Assembly: GCA_000818095.1 (NCBI GenBank)
Contig: CP009416.1
Coordinates: 2,216,501 to 2,280,500 of the forward strand
Source of the DNA: Jeotgalibacillus malaysiensis
Lineage (GTDB): Bacteria > Bacillota > Bacilli > Bacillales > Jeotgalibacillaceae
Length of the DNA: 64,000 nucleotides
Reading direction: 5' to 3'
Shown: positions 1,246 through 43,162 of the stretch, piece after piece
How positions within the stretch are numbered: the first letter of the stretch is position 1
Layout of the letters: every line of letters starts with the position of its first letter
Made by a program: the position numbers and the translations under genes
The notes under the pieces: generated by a model
The model's database searches: none
The model's input: the letters and a program-made list of their open reading frames with translations, nothing else
Told to the model about the DNA's origin: nothing

Positions 1246-1626
1246 TTAACCTGCGTGAACAGTTGATTGTGGTACTTTAACAGGTCCCATACCACGCGGC
1301 ACTTCAATTGTTTCACGAGTCTCAGCACCAAGTGATTCAGCGATATGATTCGCCGCAACATTTGGATCAAGATCTCCGCATGTATATACATCTATACTCG
1401 CATAGCCGTGTTCAGGGAAGCTGTGAATCGTTAAGTGTGATTCTGAAATAATCACCACTCCACTTACACCCTGCGGCGCAAATTTATGAAATGCAACTTC
1501 TCTTACCTCAGCACCTGATTTCAGTGCTGCATCTACGAATGTTTGTTCAATTAATTCCATGCTGTTTAACTTTTCAAAGTCACAGCCCCATAGTTCCGCT
1601 ATTACATGACGACCCATTGTTTCCAT
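1246..1626 (-). CDS. speD: S-adenosylmethionine decarboxylase proenzyme, prokaryotic class
   Basis: SpeD decarboxylates S-adenosylmethionine to supply aminopropyl groups for spermidine. The 126 residues match the usual length of the small bacterial form. The self-processing site is visible in SESHLTIHS: cleavage between Glu62 and Ser63 turns Ser63 into the pyruvoyl cofactor. His68 and Cys83 match conserved active-site positions of the family. The ATG start is preceded by an AAGGGGGAA ribosome binding site. That site is complementary to a stretch in the 5' leader (see the leader entry), suggesting translational control. No speE lies nearby. Confidence 0.97.
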
Positions 1627-1759
1627 TGATCGTTCCCCCTTACTGAAAATTTGAACTTACCCGGTTGATCAGACCCTGCTGCCACGGGGGAAAGTTAGTC
1701 CAATGAGGTCCTAACCCTTTAAGCAGAAGTTATGTTGTGTGAACCGGAATAAGATCACG
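1627..1759 (-). ncRNA. Structured speD 5' leader, candidate translational riboswitch
   Basis: The reverse-strand leader can form three nested helices. P1 pairs CCGGUU (1747-1742) with AACCGG (1666-1661). P2 pairs CUGCU (1726-1722) with AGCAG (1680-1676). P3 pairs GUUAG (1715-1711) with CUAAC (1698-1694), extended by wobble pairs. Between P3 and the P2 3' arm lies UUCCCCC (1692-1686), a perfect 7-nt complement of the speD ribosome binding site GGGGGAA (1639-1633). That pairing would form a pseudoknot hiding the site. I recognise no known riboswitch class. The pairings are seen directly; regulation is inferred, with S-adenosylmethionine or a polyamine as plausible ligand. Confidence 0.5.
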
Positions 1760-1765
1760 AAAATC

Positions 1766-1794
1766 AGTATAAGGTTTTTTGAATGATTTTGCAA
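1766..1794 (-). promoter_or_regulatory. Sigma-A type promoter of speD
   Basis: The reverse strand has TTGCAA (1794-1789), a 17-bp spacer and TATACT (1771-1766). Transcription would start near 1759, giving a leader of about 130 nt. Confidence 0.7.
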
Positions 1795-3371: not shown

Positions 3372-3507
3372 AATCGTTTCGCTGTGCTTAAGGCGGACGC
3401 TTTCCCCGGGGACGGCGCTGAGCCTCCTCGGGCTTCGCCCTGTGGGGTCTCAGCTGTCCGTCACATCCCGGTGGAGTCGCCGCCTTACGCTCCGCTGCAC
3501 TTAGATT
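3371..3507 (+). repeat. Dispersed GC-rich intergenic repeat, copy C
   Basis: It contains AATCGTTTCGCTGTGCTTAA, GCGGACGCTTTCC, CTGAGCCTCCTCGGGC, GGGGTCTCAGCTGTCC and GAGTCGCCGCCTTACG in that order. It is full-length and directly abuts the terminator at 3341-3371. Confidence 0.92.
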
Positions 3508-12540: not shown

Positions 12541-12652
12541 CCACTTCAGGCGGACGCTTTCCGGACGGTGGTTGCTGAGCCTCCTCAACGCTGCGCGTCT
12601 GCGGGGTCTCAGCTTCCCACTAATCGTCCCGGAGTCGCCGCCTTACGCTACA
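12541..12652 (+). repeat. Dispersed GC-rich intergenic repeat, copy D
   Basis: It has GGCGGACGCTTTCCGGACGG, TTGCTGAGCCTCCTCA, GCGGGGTCTCAGCTTCCC and GGAGTCGCCGCCTTACGC in order, almost identical to copy B near 2.1 kb. It lies between the maoC-like gene and phoP. Confidence 0.92.
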
Positions 12653-32187: not shown

Positions 32188-32313
32188 AACCGGCTCACTG
32201 CGTTTCAGGCGGACGCTTTCCGCAGCCGGGCGGTGAGCCTCCTCAGCTTCGCTTCCGGGGTCTCACCTGTCCCTTTTCCGCTGCTGGAGTCGCCGCCTTC
32301 CACTCCGTTCCCC
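32188..32313 (+). repeat. Dispersed GC-rich intergenic repeat, copy E
   Basis: It contains TTTCAGGCGGACGCTTTCCG, GGCGGTGAGCCTCCTCAG, GGGGTCTCACCTGTCCC and GGAGTCGCCGCCTTCC. It lies between ytkL and its terminator. Confidence 0.92.
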
Positions 32314-37508: not shown

Positions 37509-37592
37509 AAATCGTTTCGCTACACTTAAGGCGGATTCTTTCCGGACGGCGGTCGCTGAGTCACCGCCTTACGCTCCGCTGCACTTAAGATT
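37509..37592 (+). repeat. Dispersed GC-rich intergenic repeat, copy F (internally deleted)
   Basis: It starts like copy C (AAATCGTTTCGCTACACTTA, then GCGGATTCTTTCCGGACGGC) and ends CACCGCCTTACGCTCCGC. It lacks the middle part with GGGGTCTCA and is about 84 bp instead of about 130. Confidence 0.88.
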
Positions 37593-43026: not shown

Positions 43027-43162
43027 GTAATCGTTCCACTTCGCTTCAGGCGGACGCTTTCCACGCGGCCGGCGGTGAGCCTCCTCGGACGCTTCGCACC
43101 TGCGGGGTCTCACCTGTCCGGCTTCTCGCGTTGGAGTCGCCGCCGTACGCTCCGCTGCACTC
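43027..43162 (+). repeat. Dispersed GC-rich intergenic repeat, copy H
   Basis: It contains AATCGTTCCACTTCGCTTCA, GGCGGACGCTTTCCACGCGG, CGGTGAGCCTCCTCGGACGC, GCGGGGTCTCACCTGTCC and GGAGTCGCCGCCGTACGC. Together with the adjacent terminator it forms the same composite unit as copies B, C and E. Confidence 0.93.

Follow-up and report, generated by a model that had tools for sequence, protein, structure and literature searches.

The leader of speD in Jeotgalibacillus malaysiensis is probably a member of a widespread structured RNA class in Bacilli, which would act as a translational, riboswitch-like OFF switch for a ligand from the S-adenosylmethionine (SAM)/spermidine branch. SpeD consumes SAM and feeds spermidine synthesis. 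At the sequence level, we show that a C-rich strand of a conserved core is complementary to the speD Shine-Dalgarno (SD) sequence and that this core lies at speD in the loci examined. An initial annotation of the window, the 64,000-nucleotide stretch of J. malaysiensis DNA analyzed here, had proposed that the leader folds into nested helices with a pseudoknot that hides the ribosome binding site. Our results confirm that the element it noticed is real and support part of its interpretation.

Organization of the speD leader

All of the elements named in the initial annotation are present on the minus strand where it placed them. The leader of about 130 nt that it drew from a consensus promoter measures ~132 nt from an inferred start at ~1759.

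1766..1794, minus strand: promoter, TTGCAA (1794-1789), 17-nt spacer and TATACT (1771-1766), from a sequence scan and conservation in near relatives
1627..1759, minus strand: speD leader RNA, inferred start CGUG (1759-1756)
1742..1757, minus strand: P1 5' arm, UGA (1757-1755), CUUA (1753-1750) and CCGGUU (1747-1742); duplex with the 3' arm, z = -2.65
1652..1666, minus strand: P1 3' arm, AACCGG (1666-1661), UAAG (1659-1656) and UCA (1654-1652); from the duplex z and arm changes in relatives
1723..1726, minus strand: P2 5' arm CUGC, in the corrected register; two-sided changes in all 7 modelled P2 pairs
1679..1682, minus strand: P2 3' arm GCAG, directly after GUG; from covariation of P2
1716..1722, minus strand: joining strand UUAAAGG between P2 and P3; almost invariant in the core alignment
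1711..1715, minus strand: P3 5' arm GUUAG, with inner CC at 1708-1707; no variation in near relatives, 4/7 pairs two-sided in wider relatives
1694..1698, minus strand: P3 3' arm CUAAC, with inner GG at 1701-1700; from covariation of P3
1686..1692, minus strand: anti-SD UUCCCCC, flanked by P3 and the P2 3' arm; CCCCC in 215/215 core loci
1633..1639, minus strand: speD ribosome binding site GGGGGAA, putative pseudoknot partner of the anti-SD; GGGGG before speD in 215/215 loci
1246..1626, minus strand: speD coding sequence, 126 aa, AUG at 1626-1624; relatives at 98% identity
1214..1237, minus strand: terminator-like hairpin 3' of speD, from the window scan

The SpeD protein of the window shares 98% identity with its counterparts in J. 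terrae and J. alimentarius, and the frame at 3241-2204, upstream of speD, is presumably gapB, which it resembles. The promoter-like site alone is no evidence, because the window scan found 1 site of the TTGCAA-17-TATACT type and 1.8 are expected in shuffles. Among 91 distinct near-relative leaders, which were excised with a pattern demanding a -10-like hexamer before CGTG, TATACT is kept in 91, TTGCAA in 88 and the 17-nt spacing in 90, and CGTG follows the -10 element by 6 nt in 91/91. Since CGUG stands at a fixed distance from the -10, the predicted transcript 5' end belongs to P1.

Folding of the single window sequence was rejected as evidence: its energy is ordinary (z = -0.05 against dinucleotide shuffles; z = 0.71 in a second test) and no better than chance, so the case for a structured leader must be comparative. 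We also considered a transcription attenuator and set it aside for the window, where a scan of the leader detected no terminator-like hairpin between the promoter and speD. Because the leader holds no terminator-like site and its conserved output is masking of the SD, translation is the likely step of control.

Distribution and conservation in Bacilli

A scan for SpeD in genome contigs, from which the best 80 of 491 relative-encoding loci were kept, and a search of 61 whole genomes (57 with SpeD), which gave 30 further loci, together yielded 110 loci. A core around CUACUUAAAGGGUUAGGACCUC-NNN-GGACUAACUUUCCCCCGUGGUAG lies upstream of speD in 110/110 of them, some being the same place entered twice, and the relatives that carry it include the B. 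licheniformis group. With the covariation described below, this bears out the annotation's claim of a structured RNA leader at speD. We built R1, a 60-position covariance model of the core, and of 398 sampled Bacilli genomes 190 have a match to it, one each (E up to 0.1). SpeD is found in 275 of the same 398 genomes (E up to 1e-10), so that SpeD-bearing genomes outnumber R1-matched ones by 85. Occurrence as one copy per genome at speD agrees with feedback control. What we observed, a conserved and structured 5' leader at one gene, is one general mark of a riboswitch.

The full set comprises 215 core loci with 175 distinct sequences, and speD follows directly downstream on the same strand in every one. 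SpeD led to 111 of these loci (the window included) and the motif to 104; the motif-reached loci comprise 95 distinct sequences, 86 of them absent from the SpeD-reached set. A pattern search allowing 2 mismatches matched 350 of 397 genomes of the order; the reversed control also matches often, and the search served for locus finding only. Because they are without the core, four of its hits (L115-L118) were excluded from the 215. When the phylum was searched with a second model, R2, 8 of 299 genomes matched, six of them Bacilli. Outside Bacilli, L256 is a member with SpeD. The match at L255 was discarded as an apparent false hit, with no SpeD and in GC-rich DNA.

Conservation extends beyond the paired positions: 38/60 core columns show no change across 58 leaders, unpaired strands included. 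The almost invariant joining strands suggest a putative binding site. These columns also bear on the idea that the leader is a static or physical element, that is, a fixed translational brake, an RNA thermometer or an mRNA stabilizer with no specific ligand. SD pairing alone would account for a brake, and the ordinary fold energy is in keeping with one. However, a brake or a thermometer needs pairing rather than fixed unpaired letters, and we regard a static element as improbable.

Leaders of the speF type are controlled by the translation of an upstream open reading frame (uORF). For speD, a frame of at least 6 codons can be found in 90 of 91 distinct leaders, and 72 of 91 have a weak SD-like match under a lax rule. 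However, these frames share neither start nor length (the commonest kind, GTG with 9 codons, occurs in at most 19/91), the length of the variable loop differs by one base in L153, L157 and L199, and the conserved helices covary. Control by translation of such a frame was rejected as unsupported, since a conserved short frame with its own ribosome binding site was not found in the 91 distinct leaders, and we assign it very little probability.

Covariation of P1, P2 and P3

The comparative data show P1, P2 and P3 to be a conserved RNA fold. Among 58 near relatives (57 in alignment A1, from which L005 was omitted for its long 5' segment), P2 varies yet pairs, with two-sided changes at 5 pairs, and P3 never varies. 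Across 86 distinct sequences from wider relatives, two-sided changes are found in 7/7 P2 pairs and 4/7 P3 pairs; in L213-L216, GUGGG/CUCAC replaces the GUUAG/CUAAC of P3. The P2/P3 covariation score is 0.401 compared with 0.170 (sd 0.009) in shuffles, 0/500 of which reach it with kinship ignored, and at most 0.096 in slid registers; the 86-sequence alignment was fitted to the proposed structure, which favors that structure, and alignments A2 and A4 were built by MAFFT. One leader, L201 (genome G416), carries a 52-nt insertion in the terminal loop of P3 that is itself predicted to fold into hairpins.

P2 had been drawn as CUGCU/AGCAG (1726-1722/1680-1676). Although these strings are present in the sequence, covariation rejects that register, which is three bases off: relatives back CUGC at 1726-1723 with GCAG at 1682-1679, the register in which all 7 pairs show two-sided changes. 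The proposal of three nested helices otherwise stands, with P1 longer than claimed.

The P1 duplex, formed by the 5' end and the segment after P2, has a mean z of -1.35 in the 58 near relatives; it falls below -1 in 38 of them and lies at or above 0, no better than shuffles, in 9. In relatives within Jeotgalibacillus, CCGGUU/AACCGG becomes UUGGUU/AACCAA or UUGGUU/AACCAG. We prepared 51 sequences of a tight family (UAGGAUC/GAUCCUA or UAGGAAC/GGUCCUA), with the duplicates L193 and L194 removed and L201 left out for its insertion, and aligned 46 of them as A4, omitting L152, L160, L161, L162 and L180 for their differing P1 flanks. Two-sided changes affect 3/6 P1 pairs in these 46 leaders, one P1 pair (columns 14-82) is not complementary in 25 of them, and the P1-P2-P3 covariation score is 0.192 against 0.104 when shuffled. 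The initial annotation had staked its proposal on compensatory changes in P1-P3, and two-sided changes occur in each of the three helices.

Conservation at the DNA level, as promoter or operator sequence with no RNA function, or conservation by chance, would agree with the conserved promoter and the ordinary fold energy. However, the promoter is upstream of the conserved block and the P2/P3 two-sided-change score exceeds 500/500 shuffles; helix covariation, both of P2/P3 and of P1-P2-P3, refutes this explanation and leaves it a negligible chance. RNAalifold points to a possible competing state of the fold in which GGG (1717-1715) would pair with CCC of the anti-SD.

Complementarity between the core and the SD

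Every core locus (215/215) has CCCCC within its core and GGGGG ahead of speD. By a crude start-site rule applied to window and flanking ORFs, GGGGG is otherwise seldom the SD: it precedes 2 of 52 other ORFs of the window and, in 80 relatives, 11 of the 261 ORFs in the speD flanks, which have orthologues in common. With neither side varying, the anti-SD and the SD cannot covary in the window type, and we therefore read divergent speD leaders.

The first divergent set consisted of 26 genomes with SpeD and without an R1 match, in which 30 loci were read; 22 have a related leader (with a degenerate frame in L244) and 8 have none. Some of these 8 leaderless loci are extra speD copies, and no known Rfam family occupies the place of the leader in them (L219-L226). 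The second set, 32 further genomes of which two are R1-matched, gave another 30 loci, and the frame is present in 30/30. As side observations, L219 (G535) and L223 (G489) are leaderless copies in genomes with more than one SpeD-like match, and another SpeD-like copy in G535, L247, has the leader element. In G037, G040, G656 and G727 the SpeD-like matches sit in open frames that greatly exceed speD in length (436-452 aa), and longer or fused proteins seem likely there.

The divergent type keeps UAGGAACCAGGAUUCACU...AGUGAAUGACGUAGGUCCUAGC, with AGGAACC exact in 48/53 leaders, and a hairpin before the SD; the P3 domain is altered or replaced in many. Its apical strands complementary to the SD read CCCCC, UUCCCUC, CCCCU or UCUCCUC, and UCUCCUC occurs with the SDs AGGAGGGGGG, AGGAGAGGGGG or AGGGGAGGGG. 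An exception is L230, whose anti-SD is broken (UUACCUC). The P1 3' strand of several divergent families, CCUAGC, can alternatively pair with GCUAGG just before the SD (hairpin P4). P1 and P4 are mutually exclusive because the CCUAGC strand is common to both, and such a strand swap would fit a switch. The start codon in divergent families is enclosed by a hairpin (for example, CCGAAAG...CUUUCGG), which has at least 6 pairs in 48 of 52 distinct leaders and a mean of 6.85 pairs compared with 4.86 for shuffled 5' flanks (L283, L212 and L204, missed by the pattern, were skipped); its conservation is partly coding, as the 3' arm lies within codons. Our evidence for the alternative hairpins P4 and P5 comes from the divergent families.

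In 53 divergent-type leaders, the longest Watson-Crick match between the apical strand and the leader's own SD averages 4.79, compared with 3.60 for shuffled apical strands (0/100 reach it). Exchanging the SDs among the same leaders gave 4.67 against 4.79 for their own, with 8/300 permutations as high and kinship ignored. An energy swap test, for which some apical segments were cut too long by the pattern, gave the own SD an advantage in the CUCCUC type alone. Taken as sequence, the anti-SD/SD complementarity is clearly kept, even where the apical domain appears to have been rebuilt; site-by-site covariation beyond shared G/C richness is apparently modest. For the SD-masking pseudoknot of the initial annotation, the complementarity held, base-level covariation was modest and masking is possible. 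The compensatory changes sought between anti-SD and SD are precluded by invariance in the window type (215/215), and divergent types keep the pairing by different sequences. The leaders would thus contain an expression platform able to hide or free the SD.

Relation to known RNA families

The annotation had recognized no known class in the leader, and our searches agree. Rfam 15 (4227 families) gave no match in the speD leader of the window at curated thresholds, and with E up to 5 the window returned just hya and an IRES model, both weak and outside the leader. Curated thresholds likewise gave no speD-leader match in 24 relatives, where the hits were RNase P and Bacillaceae-1 elsewhere, and the leaders of L163 and L228 returned nothing with E up to 5. 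The SAM-I covariance model, which covers the test for the spermidine SAM-I variant, was unmatched in the window, the 24 relatives and the L163 and L228 leaders, and SAM-II, SAM-III, SAM-IV to VI, SAM/SAH, preQ1 and other Rfam riboswitches were unmatched in the speD leaders searched. The speD leader appears to represent a class unlisted in Rfam, of the known kind of translational, riboswitch-like leaders. Among the hits outside leaders, the Bacillaceae-1 RNA match of L241 (2387-2453) is nested in its RNase P RNA match (2125-2609).

The SAM-II, SAM-III/SMK and preQ1-II riboswitches are translational and mask the SD by a pseudoknot or by direct pairing. The speD element resembles them in that the SD would pair with part of the folded domain, which should place ribosome access under the control of folding; it differs in that it has no Rfam match and in its longer 5' helix, which begins at the inferred transcript end. 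Spermidine riboswitches, in the accessible text of the work describing them, are SAM-I variants with 13 examples, act as OFF switches and lie upstream of spermidine and cadaverine genes, speD among them, in Gram-positive genera (PMC10853860). The speD element is likewise a Gram-positive leader RNA on a polyamine gene, with a presumed OFF action, whereas it is unmatched to SAM-I, has a stacked P1-P2-P3 with a putative SD pseudoknot and is far commoner than the examples in that text. Descent from a known SAM or spermidine riboswitch family, with later divergence, would place the leader in the right pathway and would have precedent in those riboswitches upstream of polyamine genes in Gram-positive genera. 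However, Rfam matched neither the window, nor the 24 relatives, nor the two leaders at E up to 5. Such a reading is unlikely after these searches, and we give it hardly any weight.

Beyond one B. subtilis entry, our literature search, core strings included, found no description of the speD leader element; subscription papers, preprints and supplements lay outside its scope. That entry, in the accessible text of an Hfq study, is a 79-nt RNA between speD and gapB labeled "Unknown or speD leader region" (PMC3574147). Nearly all of the signal-responsive leaders enriched in the same pull-down are aptamer domains, and the authors suspect nonspecific association with Hfq (PMC3574147). The 79-nt RNA, recovered like known aptamer domains, is presumably the speD leader element; the accessible text gives no structure, conservation or function for it (PMC3574147). 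Two large motif surveys do not include speD in their main text (PMC8632094, PMC11109978). According to the accessible text of a further report, the S-box regulon is repressed in B. subtilis without speD, which its authors read as SAM excess (PMC5519356).

A model for the control of speD

Our results suggest a model in which a ligand stabilizes the P1-P2-P3 fold and its almost invariant joining strands. In the stabilized fold, UUCCCCC would pair with the SD, ribosome binding would be blocked and SpeD synthesis would stop; without ligand, the SD would be free. The OFF direction of the switch is itself presumed. The ligand, which we propose with less assurance, would be a metabolite of the SAM/spermidine branch, with spermidine or decarboxylated SAM ahead of SAM or methylthioadenosine.

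The same SD-masking fold could instead be stabilized by a protein, either SpeD or another RNA-binding regulator, with no direct metabolite binding. Sequence data cannot separate a protein from a metabolite ligand, and the conserved joining strands could be a protein site. Against this explanation, we know of no candidate protein for the speD leader, and the core is common to SpeD proteins that range from 98% to about 40% identity to that of the window, which makes SpeD itself less likely as the ligand. The B. subtilis leader RNA did come down with Hfq, although in the accessible text the authors suspect a nonspecific association (PMC3574147). Overall, we consider a protein ligand a less probable but not trivial alternative to a metabolite-sensing switch.

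For the metabolite-sensing switch in its fullest form, the chances seem about even: a new and widespread riboswitch class of Bacilli, with a fold unrelated to SAM-I, that would sense spermidine, decarboxylated SAM or another SAM-branch metabolite and close a feedback loop on speD, and whose apical domain would have been rebuilt several times with the outer frame and the SD pairing kept. The literature found gives no account of how spermidine synthesis is tuned at speD in Bacillus-type bacteria, and a single-copy RNA that is absent from Rfam and occurs in almost half of the Bacilli genomes sampled (190/398) offers a directly testable answer. Next to the rare SAM-I variants, it may represent a second and unrelated RNA-based means of sensing polyamines or SAM-branch metabolites. 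How an output is retained while the sensor region changes could be learned from relatives in which the core is exchanged within a preserved frame.

Dispersed repeat near speD

Separately, we observed a GC-rich dispersed repeat holding GCGGACGCTTTCC, with 7 copies in the window at up to 2 mismatches compared with 0.70 expected. The copies lie at 1858-1870, 2120-2132, 3393-3405, 12550-12562, 32209-32221 and 43050-43062, and at 37531-37543 with 2 mismatches. Two of them fall between speD and the gapB-like gene.
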